IMG/VR virus record: IMGVR_UViG_3300007539_000262 | Location: 1-21,906 of that record | DNA from: a virus | Length of the DNA stretch: 21,906 bases | Direction: 5' to 3' (one strand) | Shown here: piece after piece, positions 2,487-19,509 of the stretch | How positions within the stretch are numbered: the first letter of the stretch is position 1 | Layout: each line of letters starts with the position of its first letter | The notes under the pieces: generated by a model | What the model was told of the DNA's origin: nothing | The model's input: only the letters and a program-made list of their open reading frames with translations | The model's database searches: none | Position numbers and translations under genes: made by a program

Positions 2487-2684
2487 TCAGAAGCGAATAC
2501 CGCTGGCATCCTGTGGCACTTGCCCTGATGCAACTTTATTAAAGCTGGTCGGAATACGTCCTAAACGTAACACACGAATGTTTGGCTCCTTCGCACTCTC
2601 AACAGCCAACAGTTGGTCAACTCTGTTTTTTAAGAAATCTTCTGCGCTAGGTTGCGACCCACCCAATGTAAAAATCATTTGCAA
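2487..2684 (-). CDS. Small hypothetical protein, 65 aa
   Basis: This 65-aa product has one helical segment (SAEDFLKNRVDQLL, 13-26) and then a short beta-rich end. The start is either Met1 or Met3 (ATG at 2684 or 2678); both overlap the 3' end of the HNH gene. It ends 2 bases before the next gene, so translation is likely coupled. The family is not recognised. Confidence 0.5.
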   Translation of the reverse strand: MQMIFTLGGSQPSAEDFLKNRVDQLLAVESAKEPNIRVLRLGRIPTSFNKVASGQVPQDASGIRF

Positions 2685-3128: not shown

Positions 3129-3211
3129 GGGAGTGTGGCGGAATTGGTCCACGCAGCGGATTTAAAATCCGCTGGTCCTTGACCTTGTGGGTTCGAGTCC
3201 CACCACTCCTA
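3129..3211 (+). tRNA. tRNA-Leu (anticodon UAA)
   Basis: A full class II cloverleaf can be drawn. The acceptor is GGGAGTG (3129-3135) with CACTCCT (3204-3210), which includes one G-U pair. The D-stem is GCG/CGC, the anticodon stem GCGGA/TCCGC, and the loop TTTAAAA gives anticodon UAA. There is a long variable arm, GGTC-CTT-GACC (3174-3184), and a T-arm GTGGG-TTCGAGT-CCCAC. The discriminator is A3211 and no CCA is encoded. No intron is present, whereas cyanobacterial tRNA-Leu(UAA) genes often contain a group I intron. It would read UUA/UUG codons. Confidence 0.93.
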
Positions 3212-3213
3212 TT

Positions 3214-3285
3214 GCGGATGTAGCTCAGTGGTAGAGCTCCTGCCTTCCAAGCAGGCTGTCGAGGGTTCAAGTCCCTTCATCCGCT
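3214..3285 (+). tRNA. tRNA-Gly (anticodon UCC)
   Basis: It starts 2 bases after tRNA-Leu. The acceptor GCGGATG pairs perfectly with CATCCGC (3278-3284). The D-stem is GCTC/GAGC, the anticodon stem CCTGC/GCAGG, and the loop CTTCCAA gives UCC. The T-arm is GAGGG-TTCAAGT-CCCTT with one G-U closing pair. No CCA is encoded. The close spacing indicates co-transcription with tRNA-Leu. Confidence 0.94.
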
Positions 3286-3307: not shown

Positions 3308-3619
3308 TTGGCGCAGATTTCGCGTCAATTGGTGACCTCTGACAAAGTTAAAGAGACCAATAAACGAAGTAGAGAAGCTCGACGTCAGTGGTATATGGAC
3401 CTCATGAGCGAAAAAGCGTGTGAACTATGCGGTGAAGATGATCTGGTAACGCTGGACTGGCATCATCTCGATCCTGCTCAGAAAGATCACAATGTCTCCA
3501 AGATGTACAAATCTTTCGGAAGACAGCGGATTCTGGAGGAAATCTCCAAATGCCAGTGCTTATGCGCCAACTGCCATAGAAAGGTGCATCGGGATTTACG
3601 CCAAGCGAAAACCTCTTGA
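3308..3619 (+). CDS. Small HNH endonuclease-like protein
   Basis: The frame encodes up to 103 aa with an HNH core: CELCG (38-42), LDWHHLDPAQK (49-59) holding the His-His pair, and CQCLCANCHRKVH (82-94) with the second CxxC and closing His. It is a plain, single-domain HNH protein of a kind common in phages, probably a free-standing mobile endonuclease. It lies 22 bases after tRNA-Gly on the same strand. The start is uncertain: TTG at 3308, GTG at 3332 or ATG at 3395 are all in frame; the basic segment before RQWY suggests one of the first two. Its stop overlaps a promoter-like TTGATT for the next gene. Confidence 0.75.
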   Translation: MAQISRQLVTSDKVKETNKRSREARRQWYMDLMSEKACELCGEDDLVTLDWHHLDPAQKDHNVSKMYKSFGRQRILEEISKCQCLCANCHRKVHRDLRQAKTS

Positions 3620-3867: not shown

Positions 3868-4306
3868 GTCTGTTAAAATTATTGAGTTCCCCCTCTCTTT
3901 TCGATGGGGCATCACCACCCATACTGCTCTGTCGGTATGGTGCACCAAAGGATACGCTTTATCGTTTCTAATTGGTGTGCGTGATAGAGGTGCAGTCCCT
4001 GTCTGGATACGCCTGGTTAACTCACAGCCCGATTGTCGGTAAGCCAGTCACACTGCATCCATCTATTAACAACACCCCCTATGCTTAGCTCCAGGACGCT
4101 GGATGACGCACAAACCAGGGGGTCACTAATTAAGGGTGCAACAAGGAACGTTGCATTAAACAAAGGATCCCCTCGGCCGCACCGTAGATTATCGTAGGCG
4201 GACATCCTTGCCCTTATTACAAAGGGGTTCTGCATGGTGCATGCTGAACTTAAATAACTGACGCCTCCCGCTGCAGAAAGCGTACCCACTAGGTCAGTGC
4301 CCTACT
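3868..4306 (+). other. Hairpin-rich noncoding stretch before tRNA-Pro (possible structured RNA)
   Basis: No convincing gene is present in about 440 bases, but several inverted repeats are. CACCCATAC/GTATGGTG lies near 3917-3943. GGTGCAG (3989-3995) pairs with CTGCATC (4053-4059) and encloses CTGGTTA/TAAGCCAG and CCGA/TCGG hairpins. ACCCCCT (4074-4080) pairs perfectly with AGGGGGT (4117-4123) around TCCAG-GACG-CTGGA. TGCAAC (4137-4142) pairs with GTTGCA (4150-4155), and AAGGAT (4163-4168) with ATCCTT (4204-4209) around CCGC/GCGG. This density suggests a folded RNA, a processed leader or decayed RNA genes. Open frames on both strands here look like chance. A T-arm or anticodon loop typical of a further tRNA was not found. 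Confidence 0.4.
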
Positions 4307-4307
4307 C

Positions 4308-4378
4308 CGAGATGTAGCGCAGCGGTAGCGCATCTGCTTTGGGAGCAGAGGGTCACAGGTTCGATCCCTACATCTCCG
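4308..4378 (+). tRNA. tRNA-Pro (anticodon UGG), slightly irregular
   Basis: The D-stem GCGC/GCGC, the anticodon stem TCTGC/GCAGA and loop TTTGGGA (anticodon UGG) are clear, as is a TTCGATC T-loop. The acceptor GAGATG pairs with CATCTC for six base pairs, but the outermost pair is C-C. The T-stem has only three good pairs (AGG/CCT) when a seven-base loop is kept; the 3' half looks one base short. No CCA is encoded. The gene may be functional with an imperfect stem or be starting to decay. It converges on the minus-strand 78-aa gene, which ends 4 bases further on. Confidence 0.72.
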
Positions 4379-4381
4379 ATT

Positions 4382-4859: not shown

Positions 4860-6113
4860 CTATGCGTTACGGAGTTTAAAGTTTATCCAACACCACCCAT
4901 CTGCTCCACCACTCACAAAAATCCGTGGATTGGTGTTTTTGAAGCTATAGCGCTGGTTTTTACCAACGGTTGGACCGACACGTGCCCAACCACCGTTGAC
5001 AAGATCAATTTCTCCGTAAGGATCTTGAACTAGCCAGTGTGTGTCACTATATCCAGTAATAACAATGTAGTGGCCACCACCAACAGGACGAGAAACAGTT
5101 CCATGATGAAGAAGACCGGCAACAACTGGTAATCCTTTGTCAATCTGGGCTTTGATGTCATCTGGAGCTACATTTACGTCGAATTTAGCGTCGACACCTA
5201 ACTCGTCAAGAGCAGCCCGATGCGTAACCTGACGAGTTGTATCACCGTGCTTATTGACGATCTTTAAATAGTCGATGTCGTCGTTAATACCAGGGAGATC
5301 AATGTACTTCAAGCACATCGCAATTGAACTGGTTTGGCACTGACGCCAACCTTCTGGACCGTTGTCTCTTTGATAAAAATATGGGAAATCCCGGAGGTAA
5401 CGTAATTTACCGTCGACAGCGTAAGCCTGTACAGAAGTATCAGTAGTCAAGCCGGACCAGTGATCATCAAAAACCCACCACTTACCAAGTCCGTAACCTA
5501 GCTCCAATAGAGTGTGCTTGTCTTTGTGATCCAAAATTCGACAATTTGGTATCTTTCGACTACCAAACATCTTTACTTTTTGATCTGAGTTGAGCTCACT
5601 TGATGGGCGCACTTCTTTTTTGATCCAGGTATTTTGTTTCGCGACAATGTCAATTAAACCTTCTTTCTGTTTTGGAGGCTCTTTTGTAAATAACTCGACC
5701 TCAGCCTCACGGCGGCGTTTCAAACCCTCAAGTACGCGGCCTCCACCTTTATTCCACCTAGGCATTTCGGCTCGTGCGACTGTATTCGGATCTTCTTTAT
5801 TATTAAGACGCTTCAACAACGTGGATTCACTAAAAGCACCGCCTCCGATATTAAATACAAAGCTTACTAACGCATCAAATTGGTTTTGATTGAGCGAAAT
5901 TTTTACTTTTTGCAAGACAATATCTTCAAACCGCTTTACATCTTTGCGTAAAGTAAATTCAGCTTCGCGTTCGGTTATCTTCAGGCCTGCTTTAACTTCT
6001 GGGCCTGTATGACCATAGCCAATTGTCCACACGCCAGCAGGACAGATATAACTATTGGCACGGAACCCCTCAAAAGTCTTAATCAGGGAAAGACCCGCAT
6101 CTGAAATTTTCAT
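4860..6113 (-). CDS. Two-domain endolysin: GH24 muramidase plus C39-like peptidase
   Basis: This 417-aa protein should cut peptidoglycan at the end of infection. Residues 1-145 form a GH24 lysozyme: LIKTFEG with Glu15, CPAGVWTIGYGHT with Cys24 and Thr30, so the triad reads E-x8-C-x5-T, the known D-to-C variant of phage endolysins, and a closing EGLKRRREAEVELF. Residues about 160-235 form a linker or small beta domain. Residues about 243-412 form a papain-like C39-type peptidase: YFYQRDN, catalytic Cys259 in RQCQTSS, His348 in GGGHYIVITGY and Asp364 in VQDPYG. C39-like cores of this type occur in cyanobacterial proteins; here it may cut peptide cross-links or the protein's own linker. There is no signal peptide, so export would need a holin; the 84-aa membrane protein just upstream fits. 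ATG at 6113 gives the full domain. Confidence 0.9.
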   Translation of the reverse strand: MKISDAGLSLIKTFEGFRANSYICPAGVWTIGYGHTGPEVKAGLKITEREAEFTLRKDVKRFEDIVLQKVKISLNQNQFDALVSFVFNIGGGAFSESTLLKRLNNKEDPNTVARAEMPRWNKGGGRVLEGLKRRREAEVELFTKEPPKQKEGLIDIVAKQNTWIKKEVRPSSELNSDQKVKMFGSRKIPNCRILDHKDKHTLLELGYGLGKWWVFDDHWSGLTTDTSVQAYAVDGKLRYLRDFPYFYQRDNGPEGWRQCQTSSIAMCLKYIDLPGINDDIDYLKIVNKHGDTTRQVTHRAALDELGVDAKFDVNVAPDDIKAQIDKGLPVVAGLLHHGTVSRPVGGGHYIVITGYSDTHWLVQDPYGEIDLVNGGWARVGPTVGKNQRYSFKNTNPRIFVSGGADGWCWINFKLRNA

Positions 6114-6408: not shown

Positions 6409-6846
6409 TTAAGTCACCCTGACTTGAACTACAGATCCATTACGGTAAATACCGCCAATGGATACTCCACCAGTGGCAGCTGCTGCGTCGTCTGCGTAAT
6501 TACCAAGACCAGAAAAATTAATCTTGGAAGGCACGACAGTGCCGTCTGATGGAGTGCCAATATTTACTGCGTCGCCACCAATTACACCGAAAAAGCTTAG
6601 TCCACTTGCAGGAGCTGAGGTGAACGTGATTGTATTAGTGCTTACAGTGTAATCGACACCTGGTTCTTGTATTACACCACCAAGAGAAATAATCAACTGG
6701 TTAGCAGTCCCTGCAGTCACATAATATGCGCTGGTGCCAGGGGGGACAGATGTAGTAAAGCTAGTAGTGACTCCATTGAAGCTAGGAGAAATATCTGTTA
6801 GTTTACGCCACTGCCCGCGTGTTGGTTCATTACCGATGTAACTCAC
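6409..6846 (-). CDS. Short tail-fibre/adhesin-like protein
   Basis: The frame opens at an ATG at 6858, but the GTG at 6846 gives a product beginning SYIGNEP after the initiator, which lines up with the N-terminus of the 620-aa fibre (AYLGND). It also leaves 23 bases after a promoter-like TTAGAATA. The product (145 aa) contains the module FNGVTTSF, LIISLGGVIQEPGVDY and APASGLSFFGVIGGDAVNIG, matching residues 24-110 of the large fibre. The C-terminal third is Gly/Ala-rich. It is probably a paralogous tip or attachment protein that evolved from, or recombines with, the fibre N-terminus. Confidence 0.7.
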   Translation of the reverse strand: MSYIGNEPTRGQWRKLTDISPSFNGVTTSFTTSVPPGTSAYYVTAGTANQLIISLGGVIQEPGVDYTVSTNTITFTSAPASGLSFFGVIGGDAVNIGTPSDGTVVPSKINFSGLGNYADDAAAATGGVSIGGIYRNGSVVQVRVT

Positions 6847-6868
6847 AACAATATCCAATCAATCCTGC

Positions 6869-6876
6869 TATTCTAA
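6869..6876 (-). promoter_or_regulatory. TTAGAATA promoter-like motif
   Basis: On the minus strand this octamer (TAGAAT as a -10 hexamer) lies in the noncoding gap between the 44-aa gene and the fibre-like gene, 23 bases before the preferred GTG at 6846. The same motif occurs at three other gene starts in the window. Confidence 0.4.
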
Positions 6877-6903
6877 ATCAACTAGATGCAGAAGAGAAGG
6901 TGA

Positions 6904-7038
6904 CTACTCGTCTACGTCTGGTTCAATCCAACTTGGCCAAACCAGGTCAAACATTGCGGGGCACTCGCCAACATCCTCCTGATTGCTCAGGTCGAGGCTG
7001 GCTTCGCAGTAGTCCTTCCATGCTTCAGAATCAGACAT
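6904..7038 (-). CDS. Small acidic hypothetical protein, 44 aa
   Basis: An ATG at 7038-7036 opens a 44-codon frame ending TAG at 6906-6904. The product starts MSDSEAWKDYCEASLDLSNQ and is strongly acidic with three Trp and two Cys, a composition unlike a random frame. It begins 15 bases after the stop of the 620-aa fibre gene and fills the gap before the next promoter-like motif. The family is not recognised; no strong ribosome-binding site is visible. Confidence 0.55.
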   Translation of the reverse strand: MSDSEAWKDYCEASLDLSNQEDVGECPAMFDLVWPSWIEPDVDE

Positions 7039-7053
7039 AGAAGTGAGTAGGAC

Positions 7054-8916
7054 TTAGATGCCTGCCGCAGTTAAGCGACCTTCCAAATCTTCGATCTTCT
7101 GCAGAGCTTCCTGCAGCGCAGCCGTCAGTAGCGGCACCAGCTTGGACTGGTCAATGCCTTGGTAGACGGGATTGCCATCAGCATCCACTTCATCCTTGAT
7201 GCCAGTGACACATTCAGGGACAACAGCTTGTGCTTCGTGAGCGAGGAATCCATCAACGGTTTTGCCAGGATCAGCAATGAAGCTGAATTGGCTGGGCTTT
7301 AATTGCTTAACGCGATCAGCAGCGCCCGTTAACGGGACAACTTTTTCCTTCAGGCGGTAGTCAGAGGAGGTGTTGTAGGCAGTGGCAGATGCTGTGACTG
7401 AAATTGTGCCAACGGTAACGTTGTCTTTCCTGAGTTCAACAACAGGTCCATCGCTTGTGTTCCTGTTGTAGAATCCTGCTTGACTAGAATTTGCACTAGC
7501 AAAGATAAAGCCAAGGGGGTTTATTTGTACTCCGGCAGTCGTTGCGCTTGGTGTAGCGCCAAAAATAACGGTTCCGTCACTACTAATCCTCATCCGCTCC
7601 GTCGGGCTGCTCGCTCCGTCGGCGGTAGTGGAGAACACTAATCTTGACGGGAGATCGTTTGCGCCACATGTTCCATCGGTATAAGCTTCAATACGCGCAC
7701 CTACAACAAACTCTGTTCCATCATTGCCTTGGAAATTAAGAGCACCTAGTTGGTCACCAGAAGCAGAGCCTACAAGAGTGTTACTACCAACAGTTCCTCC
7801 CTTTGAGCGACAAAGCGAGATAACACCACCGCCATCGCCATCTGTTGCATAGTTATTGACAACAGACAAGAAGCGCTGAGCCGGAGTAATTCCTGCGCCT
7901 TCAAGCAGGATGGCTGCAGAAATTGTTGAGTTAAAGAAGTTTGCACGCGCAGTAGACGTGCCAACTAAAAGCCTGCCGGAGCTGTCGATGCGGGCGCGTT
8001 CAGATGTATTTGTATGGAAAGCAAGTGCGTTGGGCGCACCAAAATTCATTACACCGCTAAGGCTACTAGTCGTTGATCCAGTAGTAGGCGTGCCGCTATA
8101 TGTACCCCAAATGTTTAGATAATTGGTAAGTACCGTGTCTGATTCGCTGTCGCCATTCAGCATCATGCTTAGCATTTTTATCGTGCTGGCATTTGATGCA
8201 TTACGACGCAAAATTAAGCCAGGGTAGTTCCAATTCATTGAATTGGCGAAGGATACCCCAAAATTTGCGTTAATTACGTCAAGAACATAAGCAGGGCTAC
8301 TAGTCCCCAGACCTACCCGACCACTCGCATCAACAAACAACCGCCCAGTGCCATTAGTCGAGATGGCTACTTGATCTGCGCCGGGGGAGTAGATGCCTGT
8401 ATTTGGATCAGAATTGAAAGTAATGACGGGTGCACTAGCCGATCCAAGTGAATTCGCTCTAATTTGACCACTGGCATCAATAATTAAACGGGCAGTACCA
8501 CCAGTTGTTATACCAAGTTGATTAGCGGCCGGATTGTAAACGCCTGTATCTAAGTCACTGTCGAATGTAATGCTCGGAACTGCAGCGGTACCACTTGGAA
8601 AATTGGCGCCTGCATTCACATAGTCAGCACCGGCAAGAATAACGCCAAAGAAATCAACACCACCCGCTGGAGCAGACGCAAAAATAATATTTCCACCGCT
8701 TAACCGAAATCCTTCTGTACCTGAATCATCAGGACGTTGTACTACGCCGTTAACGGAAATTAAACATTGCTGTGAATTGATAGGAGCAGGTATAGGCGCA
8801 ACACCGCTAACAGTTAGCGGAAAACTAGTCAGAACCCCATTAAAGCTGCTGGAAATATCGTCAATATTTCGATAAGTTGGGAACGCAACTTGAAGGTCGT
8901 TACCTAAATAAGCCAC
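7054..8916 (-). CDS. Tail fibre with C-terminal S74 intramolecular chaperone
   Basis: This 620-aa protein has an N-terminal attachment module (SSFNGVLTSF, residues 22-31, LISVNGVVQRP, and GGVDFFGVILAGADYVNAG) shared with the neighbouring 145-aa protein, then two tandem copies of a module with the pattern ITF-x-SD-x-x-TG-x-Y-x-P and RL-x-x-DASG (about 119-200), then a long beta-rich shaft. The last about 104 residues are a peptidase S74 chaperone of endosialidase type: SSDYRLKEKV (517-526) with the predicted self-cleavage serine, DGFLAHEAQ, and a closing coiled coil. Such domains help fibres trimerise and then cut themselves off. The protein should be a host-recognition fibre. The start is a GTG at 8916. 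It is probably translated together with the 111-aa chaperone-like gene upstream. Confidence 0.88.
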   Translation of the reverse strand: MAYLGNDLQVAFPTYRNIDDISSSFNGVLTSFPLTVSGVAPIPAPINSQQCLISVNGVVQRPDDSGTEGFRLSGGNIIFASAPAGGVDFFGVILAGADYVNAGANFPSGTAAVPSITFDSDLDTGVYNPAANQLGITTGGTARLIIDASGQIRANSLGSASAPVITFNSDPNTGIYSPGADQVAISTNGTGRLFVDASGRVGLGTSSPAYVLDVINANFGVSFANSMNWNYPGLILRRNASNASTIKMLSMMLNGDSESDTVLTNYLNIWGTYSGTPTTGSTTSSLSGVMNFGAPNALAFHTNTSERARIDSSGRLLVGTSTARANFFNSTISAAILLEGAGITPAQRFLSVVNNYATDGDGGGVISLCRSKGGTVGSNTLVGSASGDQLGALNFQGNDGTEFVVGARIEAYTDGTCGANDLPSRLVFSTTADGASSPTERMRISSDGTVIFGATPSATTAGVQINPLGFIFASANSSQAGFYNRNTSDGPVVELRKDNVTVGTISVTASATAYNTSSDYRLKEKVVPLTGAADRVKQLKPSQFSFIADPGKTVDGFLAHEAQAVVPECVTGIKDEVDADGNPVYQGIDQSKLVPLLTAALQEALQKIEDLEGRLTAAGI

Positions 8917-8938
8917 AGCAATTGACGTCTACTACAAA

Positions 8939-9274
8939 TTATTCTACCGGATTTGTATTGGGACCAGCAAGTCCAGGAGGTTCAGGCCACTTTAATTTAT
9001 GCAGATTGTGCGGACCATAAGTTTGTGGTAAATCGCGCAATACTTGGCGATATGCTGACCAAGAACGCTGATCTACAGTCGCCCCTGGCGTCATTGTCCA
9101 ATCACTATTTTTGAGTAAGATATCACGCTTTGCACGAACAACATCCCAATTCGTATCTGGGATTGCCAAAATATCTTCTTTGTAAACAGTCACTTTAAGC
9201 TGCTCAACAACTTCTGTTAATTCTTCAAGCTGTTGAGCTAAGGTGATAATGTCGTTATTTTTCGTAAGTCCCAT
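8939..9274 (-). CDS. Tail assembly chaperone / fibre-assembly-like protein
   Basis: This 111-aa protein has an N-terminal coiled coil (TLAQQLEELTEVVEQLKVTV, 11-30) followed by a segment RAKRDILLKNSDWTM (48-62), then WSAYRQVLRDLPQ (72-84) and WPEPPG (96-101). The R-x-x-LL-x-x-SDWT...YRQ-x-LRDLPQ...WP-x-PP pattern is typical of phage tail-assembly chaperone-type proteins found next to fibre genes. It is placed directly upstream of the S74 fibre, which fits a helper in fibre folding or attachment. It starts 2 bases after the stop of the preceding gene. Confidence 0.7.
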   Translation of the reverse strand: MGLTKNNDIITLAQQLEELTEVVEQLKVTVYKEDILAIPDTNWDVVRAKRDILLKNSDWTMTPGATVDQRSWSAYRQVLRDLPQTYGPHNLHKLKWPEPPGLAGPNTNPVE

Positions 9275-9276
9275 AA

Positions 9277-9621
9277 TTACGGGGTCTGCTCAAGATAACT
9301 GACGGTCAAGTCTAACGCAGTCGCCGTATCTGCTCGTGCTTGAAGCTTATCGCTTGCCTGCATAATAATTTTATTCCCGCTAATCAGCTCTAATGTAGAT
9401 CCTGCAGGTATAGGAGCATTCCTAATTAAGTAAACATCATCCCCTGTGTTACGGTCTAAATAAACATCGACATTTGCACTGGTCGAAGTCTTATTAGAAG
9501 CAAGAACGCTAAGTACAATAAGCGTTGCGGTTCCTCCCGCTGTAACGACAGTGGCACTCGGATCGGTAATAGCTGCCGTTACCAAGCTCGCTTTTGAGTC
9601 GTTTTTAAAAGTATTTGCCAT
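9277..9621 (-). CDS. Small beta-sandwich structural protein
   Basis: This 114-aa product starts MANTFKNDSKASLVTAA and has a Gly/Thr/Val-rich body with APIPAGSTLELISGNKIIM (68-86) and a final LDLTVSYLEQTP. This order (MANTFK, beta strands, IPAGS-x-LEL, KI-x-x, L-E-x-T end) matches a family of small virion proteins that I recall from marine phages. It probably forms part of the tail tip or the fibre base. It is coupled on both sides by 1-2 base gaps. Confidence 0.65.
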   Translation of the reverse strand: MANTFKNDSKASLVTAAITDPSATVVTAGGTATLIVLSVLASNKTSTSANVDVYLDRNTGDDVYLIRNAPIPAGSTLELISGNKIIMQASDKLQARADTATALDLTVSYLEQTP

Positions 9622-9622
9622 A

Positions 9623-10027
9623 TCAGCCTAAAGCAACGATAAGAGAAAGGTTGGCAGAGGAGTCAAAATTACCAGTAACCGTGAGGCTGCCATTGACAAC
9701 CATGTTATTGGCAAAAGTTGCAGTACCTGATGAATCTATTGTAACCCTGGCAACACCACCAGTTACAATTGTGATTTGATCTGAACTACCTGAAATAATA
9801 CCCGTATTGGGATCATTTGCAAACTTTAAAGCACAGCTTGACAGGCTGCCAGGCGATAGCGCCATGTTTGTGCCGTCCTGCCGGAGAAGAGGGAACCCAC
9901 CTGCAGTTGTACCATCATGTACGACACAGACATTTTTAGAGGTGTCGACCGTTACTTCACCGCCGACACCGGTAAAAACCGCTGTCTCACCAGTTGTACC
10001 GCGACGGAATTGTACTTGTGTAGACAT
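9623..10027 (-). CDS. Short fibre protein with Mtd-like N-terminal module
   Basis: This 134-aa protein begins with QVQFRRGTTGETAVFTG (4-20), then GGEVTVDTSKNVCVVHDGTT and GGFPLLR, the pattern of the N-terminal attachment domain seen in major tropism determinant and many fibre proteins. A second module (LKFANDPNTGIISGSSDQ, then VARVTIDSSG) is also present twice in the 620-aa fibre. It is probably an adaptor that fixes fibres to the baseplate. It starts with ATG at 10027 after a weak TAGGATAG ribosome-binding site. Confidence 0.72.
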   Translation of the reverse strand: MSTQVQFRRGTTGETAVFTGVGGEVTVDTSKNVCVVHDGTTAGGFPLLRQDGTNMALSPGSLSSCALKFANDPNTGIISGSSDQITIVTGGVARVTIDSSGTATFANNMVVNGSLTVTGNFDSSANLSLIVALG

Positions 10028-10031
10028 GTTT

Positions 10032-11240
10032 CTATCCTAAAGCAATTGCAATTTCAGTAGCAAATTCTTGAGTTGCAGCAGTACCAGTTTCATCTGGGAG
10101 TGTAAAAGTACGATCCGCAGTGGGATCAACAACAGTGACAAGCGTTTCAAATGCATCCGCAGTCGCACCTTCGAATGTAATGCCACTACTGTTCAACACG
10201 ATGCTATTGGCCGCGCCGCTAGCGCCAACGTAAATTGAATCAGAGGTGAAAGATAAGAGTCCTGCAATAGTTGTTGCCGTACTTCCTAGTGCAATTGATG
10301 TAGAACCTAAGGTAAAACTAGAGTTCTGAAGTTGACTGTTTGGAATATTGCTAGTGCCGAACTCACCGGTCGTGCTGTTGTAGGTCAAACCAGAACCAAC
10401 AGCAACACTGAGATGTGCTCGAACCTCGGAAGCAGATGGACCTACATACGTAATAACACCAGTGGAATTGTCGTAACTTAATGAACCATCGCCACCAGAA
10501 TCTGTAACCGAGATCGCACCACGAATGTTTGCATCAGTTACAACGGCATATGTAAAGGCGCCAGTTGCTGAGTTATAGGTGAGGCTGCCATATCCTGTTC
10601 CCGTATCGCCAGCGCTTAACGTCGAGAGAAGGGCAACAGTTCCTGTTGCATCCGGCAGTGTGATTGTCCGCGCAACCGTCGGATCAGTAGGAACAATTGT
10701 TGTGAGAACTCCATCCCCTGTGGCACCTTCAAAGGCGATGCCACTGGCACTAAGTTGAATACTATTAGCAGCTCCAGCTGCACCAACATTCAACGTAGTG
10801 CTCGCGACTAATGTCGTTGAGGTTAGGCTCGTCAGACCTGTAAATATTGTCTCTGTAGCACCAAGCGAGACATTGGTTGAACCTAAAGTAAAAGAGCTAT
10901 TAGCAAGTTGGGCATTTGGAATAGCATTAGTTCCAAACTCTCCGGTCGTGCTGTTATACGTTAAACCGGAGCCAGCAGCAACGCTAAGGTGAGCCCTTGC
11001 CTCAGCAGCAGATGGTCCCGTATAAGTTATTACACCTGTCGAATTATCGTAAGCTAAGGAACCATCACCGCCCAGATCGGTAACAGAAACCGAAGCACGT
11101 GCCCGGCTATCCAGATAATAAAGATTAGTACCTTCAGTCAGATTTGTTGTTGTATTACCAGCAAAATCAAGGCCATCCGTCGGAGTATTTACCTCCTGGA
11201 ATAAGCCATTTACCAGAGCTATCGCTTTACGTGTAGTCAT
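10032..11240 (-). CDS. Repetitive tail-fibre shaft protein with internal duplication
   Basis: This 402-aa protein has a short N-terminus (TDGLDFAGNTTTNLTEGTN, 21-39, then LYYLDSRARA), found in other phage fibres, followed by two long copies of the same unit at residues about 51-205 and 243-389. Each copy contains SVTD-x-GGDGSL, NSTGVITY, RAHLSVA, GLTYNSTTGEFGT, NSSFTLGST and ITF/IAFEGAT and closes with LPD-x-TGT. The body is beta-rich with no Cys, as expected for a trimeric shaft. The duplication is also visible in the DNA (about 10080-10511 and 10640-11087). It probably extends the fibre. The end (EIAIALG) resembles that of the next gene (SLIVALG). Confidence 0.78.
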   Translation of the reverse strand: MTTRKAIALVNGLFQEVNTPTDGLDFAGNTTTNLTEGTNLYYLDSRARASVSVTDLGGDGSLAYDNSTGVITYTGPSAAEARAHLSVAAGSGLTYNSTTGEFGTNAIPNAQLANSSFTLGSTNVSLGATETIFTGLTSLTSTTLVASTTLNVGAAGAANSIQLSASGIAFEGATGDGVLTTIVPTDPTVARTITLPDATGTVALLSTLSAGDTGTGYGSLTYNSATGAFTYAVVTDANIRGAISVTDSGGDGSLSYDNSTGVITYVGPSASEVRAHLSVAVGSGLTYNSTTGEFGTSNIPNSQLQNSSFTLGSTSIALGSTATTIAGLLSFTSDSIYVGASGAANSIVLNSSGITFEGATADAFETLVTVVDPTADRTFTLPDETGTAATQEFATEIAIALG

Positions 11241-11241
11241 G

Positions 11242-11769
11242 TCAACTCAGTAAAATAGGAGGCTCGAGCTGGATGGCTAACTCACTGCCCGAGACAGCCT
11301 CACCGACTCGAACAACGTAATGACCAGCTGTCGTAGGAGCAGTTGTAGTAATTGCGCCGTATCCTCCAGTAGCCAGGAAATAGTGGTCTCCTGCATCCAA
11401 GCCAGAAATGGCTTCAATTCCAGTCACCAAAACCTTTACGGTCTCACCAGTAAGTTTACTTGTGTCGGCAAAACCAACAACATAAGCTTCATCTAAAGTT
11501 CCGCTCGCAGTTGCACGTCCAACTAAACCATCGCTAGAACGTAGATATAAAGCATCACCTTGAGAGACATCTTCAAATGTCACCGCGTCAAATCCAACAC
11601 GAAAAGGAATTACGGTTGGAAAGCCGTCTTTAAGATCAATTAGAGCATCTACTAAACCACGGTAATTAGGAGCGTAAGGTGATCTCGACATGGTAAAGCC
11701 ATTGCCCTGCATGAGGTCAACAAGAACTGCCAGGGCACCTTCAATATTAGGATCGTATCCTGTTGCCAC
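11242..11769 (-). CDS. Tail/baseplate accessory protein
   Basis: This 175-aa protein has an N-terminal helix (EGALAVLVDLMQ, residues 10-21) and a beta-rich body with FRVGFDAVTFEDVSQGDALY (56-75), TVKVLVTGIEAISGLDAGDH and a closing TTAGHYVVRVGEAVSG ending in PPILLS. The V-x-G-x-A...VKVLV-x-G...GL-x-x-G-x-x-Y-x-L...TTAGH arrangement recurs in phage fibre-associated proteins. It starts at GTG (11769), 24 bases after the TAGAAT core of a promoter-like motif, and is the first gene of the fibre block on this side of the divergent promoter region. The exact role is not known. Confidence 0.65.
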   Translation of the reverse strand: MATGYDPNIEGALAVLVDLMQGNGFTMSRSPYAPNYRGLVDALIDLKDGFPTVIPFRVGFDAVTFEDVSQGDALYLRSSDGLVGRATASGTLDEAYVVGFADTSKLTGETVKVLVTGIEAISGLDAGDHYFLATGGYGAITTTAPTTAGHYVVRVGEAVSGSELAIQLEPPILLS

Positions 11770-11792
11770 GTCCTTGTTAATTTCCTAGATCC

Positions 11793-11799
11793 ATTCTAA
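11793..11799 (-). promoter_or_regulatory. TTAGAAT promoter-like motif (minus arm of divergent pair)
   Basis: The minus-strand TTAGAAT lies 23-24 bases before the GTG of the 175-aa gene and is preceded by GCGAT, as is similar for the copy at 6869 (TTGAT). It forms a perfect 7-bp inverted repeat with the copy at 11813-11819. It could be a -10 element, an operator half-site, or both. Confidence 0.45.
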
Positions 11800-11812
11800 A
11801 TCGCTACATACC

Positions 11813-11819
11813 TTAGAAT
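11813..11819 (+). promoter_or_regulatory. TTAGAAT promoter-like motif (plus arm of divergent pair)
   Basis: TTAGAATAGG on the plus strand lies 20 bases before the GTG of the coiled-coil gene at 11839. With the minus-strand copy 13 bases away it makes a symmetric divergent control region, in which the -35 zone of each promoter overlaps the -10 of the other. Confidence 0.45.
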
Positions 11820-11838
11820 AGGAAAAAATATTTTTACA

Positions 11839-12087
11839 GTGACGCCAGAGTTAATCGCGGCAGTTTTGTCTGGCAGCGCTGGTGCCTTCGCCGGTCTGTC
11901 TAAAGCGCTGTCAAATTTTAACAGAAAAATCGAAAGTCGCTTCGAAGCGCTCGAACAAGAGATCGACAATCTTCAAGAACGTGTCATTCAAAATTACGTT
12001 CTGAAAGAGGATTTTTTACGTGAAGTTCAAGCCGTTCACGTAAAGTTAGATCGCATCCTTGACCATATCCTTAACCACCCACACTGA
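11839..12087 (+). CDS. Single-helix membrane/coiled-coil protein, only plus-strand gene in the tail block
   Basis: The 82-aa product starts at GTG (11839). Residues 5-24 (LIAAVLSGSAGAFAGLSKAL) are hydrophobic and small-residue-rich, followed by a clear coiled coil (IESRFEALEQEIDNLQERVI, 31-50) and an end LDRILDHILNHPH. The layout (one membrane-like segment, then a coiled coil) is like XhlA-type holin partners or spanin-like lysis proteins, but no diagnostic motif is seen. It is on the strand opposite to all neighbours, has its own promoter-like motif, and its stop abuts the stop of the convergent 141-aa gene. This separate control suggests a role or timing different from the tail genes. Confidence 0.65.
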   Translation: MTPELIAAVLSGSAGAFAGLSKALSNFNRKIESRFEALEQEIDNLQERVIQNYVLKEDFLREVQAVHVKLDRILDHILNHPH

Positions 12088-12513
12088 TTAAATAGCAATC
12101 CAGGCAGCCGTCGCAGAATCATACATAAATAATCCTGGTACTAACTTATCGTAATGAAGCTGGCCATCAGTAGGGTTGATTGGCTTGCCATTGCTATTGG
12201 AAGCAACAGCCTTTGGCGTTTGCCACGATGTGCCATCATACAACTTAAAGATACGAGTACTTGACGTATCCAACCAGGATTCCCCTTTGCTGAATGATGT
12301 AAAGCCAACAGCTGGAGTGTTAGGTGCCGTCGCCCCAATGAATGTAGGGCCTACCTTAATTAAGCCCGTTGATGGCGAAGCAGTATTATCTGCATAGAAC
12401 AGACCTGGATCCGTAACATTGAAATTAAGGGCTAACTCACCTGCGCCCAATCGAATTGGGAATGGCCTGTCAAAGGCAACAGAAGAACGCCTCGACAGAA
12501 TCTGAACAGCCAT
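12088..12513 (-). CDS. Fibre/baseplate-associated structural protein
   Basis: This 141-aa protein carries the N-terminal pattern RRSSVAFDRPFPIRLGAGEL (8-27), ALNFN, DPGLFYAD, LIKVGPTFIGATAPN and a middle GESWLDTSSTRIFKLYDGTSW (77-97), which also occurs in phage fibres as a short module for attachment to the tail. It ends LFMYDSATAAWIAI. It is probably a small fibre or a connector between the tail and longer fibres. It lies 2 bases after the large 765-aa gene and ends against the plus-strand coiled-coil gene. Confidence 0.7.
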   Translation of the reverse strand: MAVQILSRRSSVAFDRPFPIRLGAGELALNFNVTDPGLFYADNTASPSTGLIKVGPTFIGATAPNTPAVGFTSFSKGESWLDTSSTRIFKLYDGTSWQTPKAVASNSNGKPINPTDGQLHYDKLVPGLFMYDSATAAWIAI

Positions 12514-12515
12514 AA

Positions 12516-14813
12516 TTACGTATTGATGTAGGGACCAGCATCAACTATTGTATCTAACTCAGTTATAGGACTATAAGTTTCCGCGTCTACTTGCACCAAG
12601 GTAGCGACATCTTCCAGTATCTCTCCATTCCTATACTCACCGCCTTCAACAAAACCAAATTCGAATTCAGTAGTATATTCACTCAGTGGTTTAGTTAGAA
12701 GACCAAACTTGACCTCCTGAAGTACCTTAGGATCTAGATTAAATAACTTATTGACTAAGGTTATAAAGCGATTTGTGGCGTTGGCGACGATGCCAGTTCG
12801 AGTCGGTTTTCCTTGATCATCTCTACGAATATTATCATTTAAGGCCATCGTAGTGAAGGTTGGGCTGAAGTCTGCAATGTCCTCGGGATTATTGCCAGCA
12901 CCAATAACGGTCTGGTTACCCGCCCAAGCAGTCGTCTGAGAATCAAATACATACTGCTCTGCAACAGCTTTTAACTTTGCACTTTCCTTATCAAAGTTCT
13001 TATAGAACGTCTCTAAGCCGGTTCCAACTGGCTGATCACTCGGTTCGAGTAACCACGTATTGACATATTCGTGTGGCTTCAGGTTTGAAACCGTACAATA
13101 TCCTGCTGTCGTGTCAGAAAACGGATAAACAATGACAAACGAATCTTTATTTGGAACGCTACTAATTGTGTATTCACCAGAAATAGCATTACCGCTTGTG
13201 AAATCAATTTGTACCCTTGTGTTAGCTAAAAGTCCGTGGTCTGACGCAAGTACTGTAATATTTGGGCCTGTTTGATCATATCGAGAGTTTAGAGAGATCG
13301 GATCACCGCCTTCATCATGAATTAACGCCCACATCGATGCATAAATGTGCTTACACCACCGCATCTGGTAATAAAGTAAATTTTGAGTCGAGAGTTCAGC
13401 GCTATCTTCGTATTCAGGCAACTGATAAAAATTATTGATGGTTGTGTAGCCAATATCCTGAAAAACGCCGGGTAAATCTCGAGTATCTGACGTAGTTCCG
13501 TCATTATTGAGAATTGAACCTGGTTTTAAATTGCTTAAGCTCGTTCTAGGGAATCGACGTCTGCTATTTTCGCTGTACAAGTTATAACTGTCACGTTTAC
13601 TGAAATCCTCACAGGTACATTGCCAGCGAAGTTCAGTTGTCAGGTATCGACCTACCGTGAAGCCGCGATGAGCTGGCACAACTGTCTTGGTAATGCCATT
13701 TGTAGTCTTACCAGCGTAACTATCGGCTCTTTGAAAAATTAATTCGTTTGTAACAGCGTCTGAACCGACAACTGTATATCCTACGTAGTCTTTATAATCA
13801 AATCCACGCAATAATCGAATAACTGTAAGACTTCCAGTTGTCGATCCACTAGTAATTGTCGTGATTTCGAGGACGGTTGGACTTATTACGGTGACTGTGT
13901 AGCGTCCAGACGAGACAAGGCCTGTACTAACGTCCAAATACACCTGATTACCCGTCGCAAGACCGTGTGCCGAGCCGCAAGTAACAGTTACAGTGTCTCC
14001 AGTACGTGAATAAGTAGCAGAAACGCCGGAATCACGCTCAATTACGCGATCCGTCATGCGTTCACCCGGTAATAACGCTGTTTCCGTAGGCAAAAACCTC
14101 AATCCAACCCGTAAAAAGGTCCATCTCGGGTCAGTAAAACCAGTTGAGACGTAATATGTAACGTTTCCACTCGTTGTAAGTGGCGCACCTGCGGTAACAG
14201 TGAACGTATTTTGGGTTTTACTAACAATTGTTAGCGTTGCATCGACCCCAGAACCCGAAGTAAACCGTAAATAAACGTTATCACCCGGAAATAACCCGTG
14301 GTTTGAGCGTGTAACAGTTAAGGTTGTACCGCTCTGACTGTAAGTACCAGTATTTTCAACCCCTAAATAGCGGACACTCTCGATAGGGAGCCCATAATCG
14401 TAGAAAGTGAAGGAATTGGTGTCCCGCATTCCAACCAGTTGCTCACCGATGTCCTGATTCGTAGAAGGATACGTGAATAATCGGGCTGGTACAAAAATGC
14501 CAGGGTACTGCTGAAAAGAAAAATAAAGCCTATAATCACCACGAACTTGTCGTTCCGTGGCTGTCGATCCTAATGCGCTTTGTGTAATCGAATAAAGTTC
14601 ATATCCACGACGCCATCTCGTCCACAGCGAGTCGTGATTGTAAAATCTAATCTCACTTTCGATCTCAGGAGAAAGTGATGGATCAAACGGGTTCTCAAGG
14701 GCAGACTTTTTATCAGTGCCCTTAAATGTTGTAAGACTACTAAATTTCTTATCCTGCTTGCCGCCAAAAGGCGAGCCTTTCGATTTAGGAAATCCGCCTA
14801 CACCAAAAGGCAT
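12516..14813 (-). CDS. Large virion structural protein with three HGL-type beta repeats and a SWIM-like zinc motif
   Basis: This 765-aa protein is probably a tail or baseplate component. After a Gly/Lys-rich start, residues about 60-150 include WTRWRRGYELY and FSFQQYPGIFVPARLFTYP. Three copies of a beta domain of about 65 residues follow: at about 157-222, 267-332 and 511-575, each with the pattern Y-(S/D)-(Q/R)-(S/T)-G, HGL, (V/I)-x-(L/I)-x-(F/V)-(T/S)-(S/T)-G, and a Thr/Val-rich end. Between repeats two and three is a CxC...CxH arrangement (C399, C401, C487, H489; WQCTCEDF and WCKHIYA) that resembles a SWIM zinc finger with a long insertion. The C-terminal part (LQEVKFGLLTKPLSEY) is mixed alpha/beta. 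Upstream and downstream genes are coupled by gaps of 2-6 bases. The overall family is recalled from cyanophage virions but has no assigned function here. Confidence 0.72.
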   Translation of the reverse strand: MPFGVGGFPKSKGSPFGGKQDKKFSSLTTFKGTDKKSALENPFDPSLSPEIESEIRFYNHDSLWTRWRRGYELYSITQSALGSTATERQVRGDYRLYFSFQQYPGIFVPARLFTYPSTNQDIGEQLVGMRDTNSFTFYDYGLPIESVRYLGVENTGTYSQSGTTLTVTRSNHGLFPGDNVYLRFTSGSGVDATLTIVSKTQNTFTVTAGAPLTTSGNVTYYVSTGFTDPRWTFLRVGLRFLPTETALLPGERMTDRVIERDSGVSATYSRTGDTVTVTCGSAHGLATGNQVYLDVSTGLVSSGRYTVTVISPTVLEITTITSGSTTGSLTVIRLLRGFDYKDYVGYTVVGSDAVTNELIFQRADSYAGKTTNGITKTVVPAHRGFTVGRYLTTELRWQCTCEDFSKRDSYNLYSENSRRRFPRTSLSNLKPGSILNNDGTTSDTRDLPGVFQDIGYTTINNFYQLPEYEDSAELSTQNLLYYQMRWCKHIYASMWALIHDEGGDPISLNSRYDQTGPNITVLASDHGLLANTRVQIDFTSGNAISGEYTISSVPNKDSFVIVYPFSDTTAGYCTVSNLKPHEYVNTWLLEPSDQPVGTGLETFYKNFDKESAKLKAVAEQYVFDSQTTAWAGNQTVIGAGNNPEDIADFSPTFTTMALNDNIRRDDQGKPTRTGIVANATNRFITLVNKLFNLDPKVLQEVKFGLLTKPLSEYTTEFEFGFVEGGEYRNGEILEDVATLVQVDAETYSPITELDTIVDAGPYINT

Positions 14814-14819
14814 CGCTTC

Positions 14820-15536
14820 TTAGTAGTAACCGCCCTGACAAGTAACGTAGAAACCGTTGGTGAGTGCCGTCGCACCACTGAATGCGGCATACAGTGCTTG
14901 ACCACGCTTCAACATCAAACCACGAATCTTAGGTGCGGTTGTGCTGTTAGCACTCGAGAAGTTGGCACCTGCCTGGACCGTTGGGTGGTTGATTAAAGGT
15001 AAAACGTTATTTTCTGTGAGACTGTAATACTGATTTTCATACGTGGCTGGGATGCTGGCCACAAACAGAGGGAAAAACTGGTTTGTATTTGTAATGGAAC
15101 CAGTTTCTACAAGGTAAATACAGAAGTTCAGCGGCAGACGGCATTCGACGTTACCGGTAATAGGACCAGAGACACTGGGAATCGTACCGGTGAACGTTGT
15201 CGGAGTTACAGCGGTAACAGTAACAGCCTGATCAATTGGATTTGTGCCACTGCTATAAGAGGTGAAGTTCAGATAAACCTTCTGGCCAACTTGTACGTTA
15301 TGACCGCCAGAAATAGTTACGACTACGCTAGTGCTGTTAGCAGAATAAGTTCCAGCAGTGGGCGAGATCGCGTCGATAAACTCAATGTTCCGTTTTGAGT
15401 ACTGGAACCAAATCTCATCAATGTAGGCGCCACTGATCGAGGTGTCGGTCTGCGAAGAGTCAACGTCAAAGATCAGCGTTGCGTTACCAACTGCGGTTGG
15501 CACCAAGCTGGTCAAAAACGACTGTCCAGAAGCCAC
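14820..15536 (-). CDS. Virion structural protein with one HGL-type beta repeat; start unclear
   Basis: From the GTG at 15536 the product has 238 aa: an N-terminal beta segment (SFLTSLVPTAVGNATLIFDV, 6-25), a copy of the beta repeat also found in the 765-aa protein (YSANSTSVVVTISGGHNVQV, then VYLNFTS and TFTGTIP, about 64-132), and a C-terminal jelly-roll-like part (LMLKRGQALYAAFSGATA). The coding signal clearly continues upstream of the GTG for 24 codons (SSSSNKQPLLVDRPATTSSL, a pattern I recall from cyanophage structural proteins) to an in-frame stop near 15615, but that stretch has no ATG, GTG or TTG. Initiation at an ATA at 15608 or a sequence error is possible. The gene stops 6 bases before the 765-aa gene. 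Confidence 0.7.
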   Translation of the reverse strand: MASGQSFLTSLVPTAVGNATLIFDVDSSQTDTSISGAYIDEIWFQYSKRNIEFIDAISPTAGTYSANSTSVVVTISGGHNVQVGQKVYLNFTSYSSGTNPIDQAVTVTAVTPTTFTGTIPSVSGPITGNVECRLPLNFCIYLVETGSITNTNQFFPLFVASIPATYENQYYSLTENNVLPLINHPTVQAGANFSSANSTTAPKIRGLMLKRGQALYAAFSGATALTNGFYVTCQGGYY

Positions 15537-15703
15537 CGTAACCAGACTCGAGGTCGTCGCTGGACGGTCGACAAGAAGCGGTTGTTTGTTGCTGGAACTA
15601 GAGCTTATACGTCAAAACACCCTGTCTTGAATTAACTCGAGCAGGGGCCTCCGAAACCTACTGCAATTCTACCTCTATAAAACCTATTTGCTACCGGCGT
15701 GAA

Positions 15704-15875
15704 TCACTTCTTCTTGCGCTTACTCTCTTCAAGATGCACACGAGCTTTTTTCACAGCAGACTTGCGACGCTCTTTGTCGCCACCCATCTCTTTTTCGTCT
15801 GCCTCACCGCCCTCTCCTCGCTTCTTTTTGAAGTGAGCCAAAAGCTCAGGAGGCATAGAACCTTTCCCAGCCATG
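15704..15875 (-). pseudogene. Small basic gene split by a one-base frameshift in a T run
   Basis: An ATG at 15875 starts MAGKGSMPPEL, but after a run of five T (minus strand, 15844-15840) the frame reads FGSLQKEARRGR and stops at 15806-15804. With four T instead, the product would read on as LLAHFKKKRGEGG and through to TGA at 15706-15704, giving 56 aa with a Lys/Arg-rich end (VKKARVHLEESKRKKK). The PPELLAHFKKK start is a familiar style of small basic cyanophage protein. The 3' part could alternatively start at TTG 15841 (45 aa). Explanations are a sequencing error, a real mutation, or programmed slippage. A TTAGAATA motif lies 25 bases upstream, which supports a once functional gene. Confidence 0.55.
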
Positions 15876-15899
15876 TGTGTAAACCAGTACGTATGAAAC

Positions 15900-15907
15900 T
15901 ATTCTAA
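15900..15907 (-). promoter_or_regulatory. TTAGAATA promoter-like motif
   Basis: The minus-strand octamer sits in the gap between the 97-aa gene and the frameshifted basic gene; its TAGAAT core ends 25 bases before the ATG at 15875. It matches the motifs at 6869 and 11813 in all eight positions. Confidence 0.4.
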
Positions 15908-17177: not shown

Positions 17178-17203
17178 GCCGTAACCAACAGTCTCCTATT
17201 AGT

Positions 17204-17437
17204 TTAACCTTTCCCCTTCTCGTACTCTTCTCGCGTCATCCACTTCTGCTTGCCCCAACGGTCAAGTGATTTCTGGGATTCAGTCTTTTCTCCGGTGTAT
17301 CCACCACCACGTTTTTTATAGGCCTGTGCTAAAAGCTGAGCCTTTCGTGCGGACCACTGGCCGGGTTTTCCTCCTTTGGATCCGGCTTTAATCCTATTCT
17401 TAAGGCGCTCGCGTAGTTCCGGTTTACTGTAACTCAT
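17204..17437 (-). CDS. DUF5872-like small basic protein
   Basis: This 77-aa protein contains the pattern KAGSKGGKPGQWSARKAQLL (17-36), AQAYKKRGGGY and SQKSLDRWGKQKWMT (54-68). KGGKPGQWSARKAQLL-x(4)-YK-x-x-GGGY and SQKSL-x-x-W-x-x-(Q/E)KW is the signature I recall for DUF5872 proteins of phages, giant viruses and some bacteria. Its function is unknown; the strong positive charge suggests contact with DNA or a charged surface. The start overlaps the previous stop by 4 bases. Confidence 0.75.
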   Translation of the reverse strand: MSYSKPELRERLKNRIKAGSKGGKPGQWSARKAQLLAQAYKKRGGGYTGEKTESQKSLDRWGKQKWMTREEYEKGKG

Positions 17438-17715: not shown

Positions 17716-18428
17716 TAGGCTAAATAATTAGGTGTCTGATTGAAAGCACTCATCAACATCTGAGCGGGATTAATCATGGATTGAATCGGTTGAGCTTTAC
17801 TTTTTAATATCTCTTGTTTATAAAGAGATAGAAGATCATCGACATTTTGATTAGATCCCAGTAGAGCTGAACTTGGTAAATAAATAAAAGTATCACCTTG
17901 TTGCGAAACTTTAGGCATTTCTACGGGTTGTTGCACTGCCGGCTGTTGATTTATGGCAGGCGGCATTACATCTGTTAATTCCTTATCTCCCCATCGTCCT
18001 GTTGCCAACCATCTCAATTGGTCATCTGTAATATTTTTCTTGCCAGCTAAAGCTAAATGTACATGGGTATCGTGTCCTTTATCTCCAGGACCATAAACTT
18101 CATCAAAAATCCCATACTTTTCTTTTAACTGTTTTGCACGCCACGCTAATTCCCCTGTTCTCTGTTGCCAAGTTTTATCTGGTAGGCCCTTCATAACAGG
18201 GCCTACATCTGGACCGAAATCACCAATGTCAACTGCGGCACCTCCTGGAGCGTAATGATACGAAGTAGGGCTATGAACGCCTTTGGTAACACCGCCGTAC
18301 AGCGGATGTTCCGTTGGCCTAAGTCCCTGCCTGTATTTCCTAAGAGCGTTGATTACATCGACAATGCTGCGTTCGGCCACGTTCTTCTTATCCTTAGTAG
18401 TTTGAGGTTTTAAAGGGATTCTCAACAA
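17715..18428 (-). CDS. M15-type zinc peptidase (peptidoglycan L,D/D,D-peptidase-like)
   Basis: This 237-aa protein has the metal-site pattern of the hedgehog/M15 group: His58 and Asp67 in YHYAPGGAAVDIGDF (57-71), and HVH (122-124) in DTHVHLAL. These residues would bind zinc and cut peptide bonds in peptidoglycan. The remaining 100 residues are Gln/Pro-rich linker and a helical end, perhaps for virion attachment. It is directly downstream of a lytic transglycosylase, giving a pair that cuts glycan and peptide, as expected for a virion-associated wall-piercing activity during DNA entry. Its start overlaps the upstream gene by 35 bases. Confidence 0.78.
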   Translation of the reverse strand: MLRIPLKPQTTKDKKNVAERSIVDVINALRKYRQGLRPTEHPLYGGVTKGVHSPTSYHYAPGGAAVDIGDFGPDVGPVMKGLPDKTWQQRTGELAWRAKQLKEKYGIFDEVYGPGDKGHDTHVHLALAGKKNITDDQLRWLATGRWGDKELTDVMPPAINQQPAVQQPVEMPKVSQQGDTFIYLPSSALLGSNQNVDDLLSLYKQEILKSKAQPIQSMINPAQMLMSAFNQTPNYLA

Positions 18429-18990
18429 ACGCCTTTGTTAATTCTAAAACAGGATTGAAACCTGTGTCGATTTGTAGTGGCTTTAGATCTGCAAAATTTC
18501 TAAAAATGTAATCTTGTAAGTGGTACTTGGTGTCCACTGCTGGTTGTGTATCGCCAAAAATAATAAAAGTACGCCCGCTTTGTTTGGCGGTATCCTGTGG
18601 TGCAGTAGTTTGCTGCTGTAAATCTGGTAGATTCTGTGCAGCTTGCTGAGCCTGTGGAAGGAATTTTTTATACTCACCACTTTTATAAACCGACCAGGCG
18701 GGAAGACCTTGGCTACGGAAGATCTCTGTGGCAGCTTTAACGTTTGTGGTTGGATCAAATAAATCTTGCTCTTTTGACAAGCCAAACTGCTTCATTCGAG
18801 CAGGGCCTAGACCACCGTACATGTTCACCTGGAACAGGCCATACGATTTATCTAAACCGGTAGGGTTATAAGCCTTGGAGCGGCCGCCCGATTCCGCCAA
18901 TGCGATGGCTGTCATCGTCGGAATCTGCTTGTCAGGGATTCCCTGTTGTTTCAACAGAGAGGCGATCTGTTGTGCATTTAACTGGGACAT
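18394..18990 (-). CDS. SLT-type lytic transglycosylase
   Basis: The preferred start is ATG 18990, with AGGAG 8 bases upstream, giving 198 aa; the frame continues to 19149 but would overlap the upstream gene by 137 bases. The product has the transglycosylase core: catalytic Glu33 in ALAESGGRSKAYNP (30-43), KSYGLFQVNM (48-57), the FDPTTNVKAA segment (78-87) and AWSVYKSGEY (98-107). It cuts the glycan chain of peptidoglycan with formation of a 1,6-anhydro end. The C-terminal 80 residues are Gln/Thr-rich and then beta/helical, probably for attachment to other virion parts. With the M15-like peptidase it forms a likely entry-stage wall-cutting pair. Confidence 0.85.
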   Translation of the reverse strand: MSQLNAQQIASLLKQQGIPDKQIPTMTAIALAESGGRSKAYNPTGLDKSYGLFQVNMYGGLGPARMKQFGLSKEQDLFDPTTNVKAATEIFRSQGLPAWSVYKSGEYKKFLPQAQQAAQNLPDLQQQTTAPQDTAKQSGRTFIIFGDTQPAVDTKYHLQDYIFRNFADLKPLQIDTGFNPVLELTKAFVENPFKTSNY

Positions 18991-19012
18991 GTTTATGGCT
19001 CCTTGTCTCGCA

Positions 19013-19492
19013 TCAACGGAAGTCGGATGAAAGCATAAGGCGAGTGCCGACAGCGACGTCAGCAGGGCCGGGCAGAGCTTGAATAAACTCTGAACCTTCT
19101 CGGTTAAACCGATACCGAGCTTGCTCGGGATTTCGGTAATTGGGTACATACAAATGGAGGGCTAATCGATCCGTCTCGTATATGTAAATCGCCGTCCAAG
19201 TCTTGAGCGTGTCCCTAAAATCAGAAGTCGCAATGGTTCGATCAACATCACCGGCAATACTCTCGATACGACTACGGGGAACAGTATTGTTATTCACGCT
19301 ACCAGTCATGTCCGTGCGCTTTTCAGCTTCATCGCACCGACCGACCTGTTCGACAATTTTTGAATACCAGAACGAATCCGGAATGTTGTTGATCGCTTCC
19401 TCTAGTCGCGCTAAATCACCTGCCGGAATAGACGTAGTGTTATAGCCTAGGTGCCAGCGGACTTTAGATTTGAGAAAGTTATCTAGTTGCAT
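19013..19492 (-). CDS. Hypothetical protein near head-neck genes, 159 aa
   Basis: The product starts MQLDNFLKSKVRWHLGYN and is helical for about 55 residues (DLARLEEAINNIPDSFWYSK), then contains a polar segment with RSRIESIAGDVDRTIATSD and an end with many Tyr. Size and position between the head proteins and tail genes suggest a connector or completion protein, but no motif proves this. It is preceded by a 13-bp hairpin 18 bases before its ATG (19510-19545). It ends 22 bases before the transglycosylase start. Confidence 0.6.
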   Translation of the reverse strand: MQLDNFLKSKVRWHLGYNTTSIPAGDLARLEEAINNIPDSFWYSKIVEQVGRCDEAEKRTDMTGSVNNNTVPRSRIESIAGDVDRTIATSDFRDTLKTWTAIYIYETDRLALHLYVPNYRNPEQARYRFNREGSEFIQALPGPADVAVGTRLMLSSDFR

Positions 19493-19509
19493 TACTCAAA
19501 AGGAAATGC

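Follow-up and report, generated by a model that had tools for sequence, protein, structure and literature searches.

Genes and recurrent boxes in the window

The stretch of DNA analysed here (the window; IMG/VR virus record IMGVR_UViG_3300007539_000262, 21.9 kb) belongs to the structural region of a cyanophage of the S-EIV1-like group. At the DNA level, its major head protein gene is 86.6% identical to that of S-EIV1 over 157 bp; the encoded protein matches PHROG 1357, and its close relatives are encoded by hundreds of IMG/VR contigs. Six structural-strand genes of S-EIV1 have matches in all 10 other records of the set described below, the window included.

A short motif recurs in the window upstream of start codons. 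The first-pass annotation placed TTAGAAT(A) in four noncoding gaps, and all four sites are exact matches. The minus-strand TTAGAATA at 6869-6876 (hexamer 6870-6875) lies 23 nt from GTG 6846 of the minus-strand gene 6409-6846, which encodes an appendage-like protein beginning VSYIGNEP, with the predicted +1 A at 6863. Two sites form a divergent pair: TTAGAAT on the minus strand (11793-11799), 23 nt from GTG 11769 with the predicted +1 A at 11786, and TTAGAATA on the plus strand (11813-11820), 19 nt from GTG 11839 with the predicted +1 A at 11826. The fourth site, a minus-strand TTAGAATA at 15900-15907, is located 26 nt from the start of the gene 15704-15874, with the predicted +1 A at 15894. 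The measured TAGAAT-to-start distances are 23, 23, 19 and 26 nt, in place of the reported range of 20-26; the ATG of the fourth gene, given as 15875, is at 15874.

Two occurrences had been missed. TAGAATA at 8940-8946 (minus strand, hexamer 8941-8946) precedes GTG 8916 of the tail fibre gene 7054-8916 by 24 nt; the predicted +1 base is T at this box, in contrast to A at all four sites listed previously. A fifth TTAGAAT, at 18441-18447 on the minus strand, is embedded in the coding sequence 18394-19149, 60 nt before GTG 18380; we judged it to lie outside the box set, and it is probably a chance match. A probable variant of the box, TAAACT at 17201-17206 (minus strand), is found 23 nt from GTG 17177, with A at the predicted +1 (17194).

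The box at 6870-6875 is retained in two near orthologues of the downstream gene (loci L263 and L264, 89% at the amino acid level) though the upstream DNA differs. These orthologues also support the start at GTG 6846 that had been chosen on the basis of the motif: both carry an in-frame TAA just 5' of the same GTG, which excludes in them a start equivalent to TTG 6858. The box at 15901-15906 is retained in seven near relatives; in other relatives, TAAAAT or CTAGAAT occupies a comparable position, and where the genes adjoin directly, the box is missing.

The raw count gives no sign of TTAGAAT enrichment in the window (5 occurrences vs 3.5 expected). Placement tells more: 5 of the 10 TAGAAT hexamers are positioned 14-34 nt before starts, on the sense strand, with 0.19 expected (binomial P = 5e-7). 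As shown below, TTAGAATA is one realisation of a degenerate box, TA[G/A]A[A/C]T, so that counting TTAGAATA alone understates the box, and because of this degeneracy the raw TTAGAATA counts per genome are too low to be useful.

The divergent pair of boxes

The two boxes at 11793-11819 make up the arrangement ATTCTA-N15-TAGAAT, a putative back-to-back divergent promoter read on both strands, with a spacing that is nearly fixed across the lineage. Leftward, it faces a conserved gene of the tail region (11242-11769, minus strand, start GTG 11769) and, rightward, an 82-aa gene (11839-12087, plus strand) that forms an antisense island in the structural block. The 82-aa gene is conserved in approximately 296 contig stretches, and its match to PHROG 462, 'lipoprotein', looks like a poor label.

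Of the 66 loci compared, nearly all retain the divergent arrangement ahead of the 11242-11769 gene, with variable flanks. In a comparison of 83 regions, obtained from the genes on either side, 76 contain ATTNTA...TANAAT; the invariance of the hexamer columns is in part a product of the search pattern, which required them, but the spacing, the third position and the other columns were free to vary. The hexamers are separated by 15 nt in 67 of the 76 regions, by 14 nt in six and by 16 nt in three. In each outer flank, no column is better conserved than the predicted +1 A, which is present on the right in 24 of 25 representatives and on the left in 18 of 25 (as T on the plus strand). Given that the two promoters would stand back to back, the polymerase footprints should overlap, and transcription in the two directions would be mutually exclusive. 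S-EIV1 has a second divergent pair, at 18619-19494, where TAAAAT and TATAAT are arranged back to back between a ferritin-like gene and its neighbour.

Enrichment across S-EIV1-like records

The window was compared with S-EIV1 (KJ410740) and nine related contigs of 60-78 kb, for a total of 11 records. A simple script, crude in its start calls, was used for gene calling, and upstream regions of 60 nt were extracted, giving 1,185 regions, or 1,103 after removal of redundancy. In the full set, TTAGAATA is the most over-represented octamer (25 regions vs 2.0 expected), TAGAATA the top 7-mer, and TAGAAT the most over-represented hexamer (83 vs 25 expected). After redundancy removal, TAGAAT ranks first among all hexamers for strand bias (59 sense vs 7 antisense), and among gapped hexamers TAnAAT is first (157 vs 47), followed by TAnACT. 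Unsupervised expectation maximisation from 150 mostly random seeds converged on TAnAAT as the best motif, present by the model in approximately 32% of the regions. The distance of the box from start codons peaks at 20-24 nt, with no such peak on the opposite strand. Within 40 nt of starts, sense occurrences of TAGAAT outnumber antisense ones in 11 of the 11 records, which are metagenomic in the case of the contigs, incomplete in several cases and, as related genomes, not fully independent. Enrichment upstream of starts in related phages, the check suggested with the first-pass annotation, was thereby confirmed independently in S-EIV1 and the nine contigs.

Anatomy of the predicted promoter

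The hexamer that emerged from the unsupervised search has the sigma-70-type pattern of T at -12, A at -11 and T at -7, the key contacts of sigma-70-family factors. At the predicted +1 position, 7 nt downstream of the hexamer, A is found in 63% of the cases (z 8.8 vs a background with the same start-codon distances), compared with 31% for identical hexamers within coding DNA; A is also enriched at +2 (z 6.4 vs this background). The predicted 5' leaders are mostly 13-24 nt long. The box itself, its strand, its fixed distance from starts and the A at the exact +1 position strongly support the previous suggestion that the motif is a -10 element. G at the third position is atypical of the sigma-70 consensus, and no preference for it was seen in a single Prochlorococcus genome, of which 398 kb were sampled; this sample is small and may represent the wrong host.

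A -35 element was not detected: at 16-18 bp from the box, at least 4 matches to TTGACA occur in 3% of late genes vs 16% at control spacing, and a column scan from -40 to -30 produced nothing above z 3. Nor is there a T-15/G-14 enrichment indicative of an extended -10 (TGn). In the column analysis upstream of the box, which reached down to -52, the stronger sites are marked by G at position -24 (z 5.1) and by T at both -22 and -21 (z ~3); tentatively, this weak G(-24)nTT(-21) patch may replace the -35 element.

Late bias and lineage specificity

Strand in S-EIV1 was used as a proxy for timing, the plus strand being structural and the minus strand carrying mostly replication and early genes. Among genes with an upstream gap of at least 20 nt and an S-EIV1 homologue, the box precedes 39 of 132 on the structural strand vs 9 of 95 on the early strand (odds ratio 4.0, P 2e-4); a coarser division of the genes gives 35 of 109 vs 15 of 115. 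Hence, by this proxy, the box is late-biased but not late-specific, and the designation of the motif as a late promoter holds as a bias toward the structural strand, not as a restriction to late genes.

The TAGAAT peak is absent in the phages S-CBP4, MED4-184 and Syn9, as well as in the 398 kb Prochlorococcus sample, a weak host control; as a positive control, the same script recovered the T4-type ATAAATA in Syn9 (13 sense vs 0 antisense). The motif had been described as phage-specific. This is borne out insofar as the box is a lineage-wide signature, whereas its T-12/A-11/T-7 pattern resembles that of sigma-70 and the searches turned up no phage sigma factor.

Search for the reading factor

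Sigma-70 region 2 (Sigma70_r2, PF04542) was detected in none of the 10 genomes, and Ogr/Delta (PF04606) searches gave nothing over the cut-off. Searches with the Syn9 proteins (tblastn and phmmer) returned no credible match to gp55 or gp33 in the 11 records, some of which are incomplete. Two of the Sigma70_r4 matches correspond to the HTH of a 115-aa protein that combines an NrdR-like zinc ribbon with a sigma region 4-like HTH and is encoded near thyX (S-EIV1 34871-35215, minus strand; L394 1471-1818, minus; L396 1288-1635, plus). This candidate is present in only three of the 10 genomes (S-EIV1, G002 and G003), and its nearest PHROG is an HNH endonuclease. A match in S-EIV1 to 'Srd / decoy of host sigma70' is spurious, the protein being an endonuclease VII/HNH.

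The lineage also encodes an orphan early protein, AHV82252, of approximately 197 aa (164 in S-EIV1), found at 76836-77330 of S-EIV1 (minus strand), at 38064-38657 of contig G001 (plus strand) and in loci L508-L587. It occurs in at least 294 contigs, with 69-77% identity among the contigs aligned, and has no Pfam or PHROG match. Its AlphaFold model is unusable (mean pLDDT 41), and with the failure of the fold prediction nothing ties the orphan to transcription.

Comparison with known promoter systems

The late promoters of P2, with Ogr, are activator-dependent and have a poor -35. The S-EIV1-like promoters resemble them in combining a sigma-70 -10 box with a weak or missing -35 in front of late genes; the difference is that the S-EIV1-like phages have no Ogr/Delta protein over the cut-off. 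With the bacterial Pribnow box, the motif shares T-12, A-11, T-7 and the spacing to a +1 purine. Unlike in TATAAT promoters, there is neither a -35 nor an extended -10, and the bases preferred at positions three and five are not the same.

T4-type late promoters consist of TATAAATA in T4 and NATAAATA in S-PM2, with ATAAATA known as the T4-type late box (PMC2984593). Like these, the S-EIV1-like promoters precede virion genes and have one box around -10 but no -35. The sequence, however, is different, with no sign of a TATAAATA-like octamer ahead of the late genes (ATAAATA, 4 sense vs 5 antisense), and gp55 and gp33 were not found.

In the cyanophage Ma-LMM01, which lacks gp55 and gp33, late genes carry a motif described as very similar to that of SigA, and the early signal consists of two 6-bp motifs 16-18 bp apart; this phage is a precedent for a cyanophage that apparently relies on host sigma for all gene classes (PMC5780444). 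The S-EIV1-like phages are similar in having a SigA-like signal before late genes and no detected gp55 or gp33, but unlike Ma-LMM01, their box lacks a -35 and favours G or A as its third base.

Interpretation of the box

Combined with the Ma-LMM01 precedent, the failure to find a phage sigma-70 region 2, gp55/gp33 or Ogr/Delta favours the host polymerase, with sigma-70-type recognition and probably a phage helper. Judging from sequence comparison, we consider TTAGAATA to be, with a probability of about 0.72, the commonest form of a -10-type box, TA[G/A]A[A/C]T, that is found across S-EIV1-like cyanophages, mostly before virion-gene transcription units, and is read by host RNA polymerase. The box would occupy positions -12 to -7, and transcription would begin at the A located 7 nt downstream, producing a 5' leader of mostly 13-24 nt, with the weak G(-24)nTT(-21) patch perhaps present instead of a -35. 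The polymerase would act with a sigma-70-family factor, and a phage helper protein would probably substitute for the -35 contacts and confer late timing.

The main rival to reading by the host polymerase is a phage sigma-like or polymerase-appropriating protein that is unrecognisable by sequence and reads the box as T4 gp55 reads TATAAATA. The box stands alone without a -35, the commonest octamer extends, as the T4 late box does, from -13 to -6, and the signal is lineage-specific and late-biased, with G or A preferred at position 3, all of which would fit such a factor; so would the existence of the strongly conserved orphan early protein. Nevertheless, we regard this explanation as rather unlikely, given that no Sigma70_r2 domain was found in the 10 genomes and no credible gp55/gp33 match in the 11 records, that the box also precedes some early-strand genes and that the orphan has no tie to transcription. 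The more specific proposal that these promoters are read via a new kind of phage transcription factor, sigma-like or polymerase-appropriating and unrelated in sequence to gp55, Ogr and known sigmas, with the 197-aa orphan as one candidate, is similarly doubtful.

Two other explanations concern the sites themselves. The near-perfect dyad ATTCTAA-N13-TTAGAAT, with its almost fixed spacing and partly conserved spacer, could be taken not for two promoters but for an operator bound by a dimeric repressor or activator. This is very improbable: outside the dyad, most sites occur singly and are directed at a start codon at a distance of 20-24 nt; within it, the two boxes disagree at their third base in 8 of 25 representatives, yet each strand retains the -10 pattern, and both outer flanks preserve the +1 A. 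That the recurrences are AT-rich chance matches, or leftovers of stop codons and gene spacing, might seem compatible with the unremarkable raw count of TTAGAAT in the window and with the overlap between some boxes, such as that at 8940-8946, and the stop of the upstream gene. For the set, however, this explanation is refuted by the placement of the boxes relative to starts, the independent enrichment in the 10 other records and the conservation of boxes in orthologues despite diverged flanks.

In the literature searched, we found neither a report of a TAGAAT-type motif (the S-EIV1 genome paper was outside that scope) nor a promoter map for S-EIV1-like phages. These phages are a widespread cyanophage lineage, and the box makes their late transcript starts directly testable, predicting them at single-base resolution for about a hundred genes of the 11 records. 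The box is also of use in assigning start codons, GTG 6846 among them, and marks a pair of putative back-to-back promoters whose conservation is deep. It raises the question of where the late bias comes from at promoters without a -35 when no phage sigma factor is found.

Other features of the window

The window encodes tRNA-Leu(taa), tRNA-Gly(tcc) and tRNA-Pro(tgg), at 3129-3285 and 4306-4380; the tRNA-Pro shares approximately 90% identity with tRNA-Pro of proteobacterial phages across about 60 bp. Close to the Leu/Gly pair are HNH-like ORFs (2647-3057 and 3308-3619). In the endolysin (4860-6113), the N-terminal half resembles lysozyme, and a second domain, also conserved, forms the C-terminal part (PHROG 10051 and 3617).
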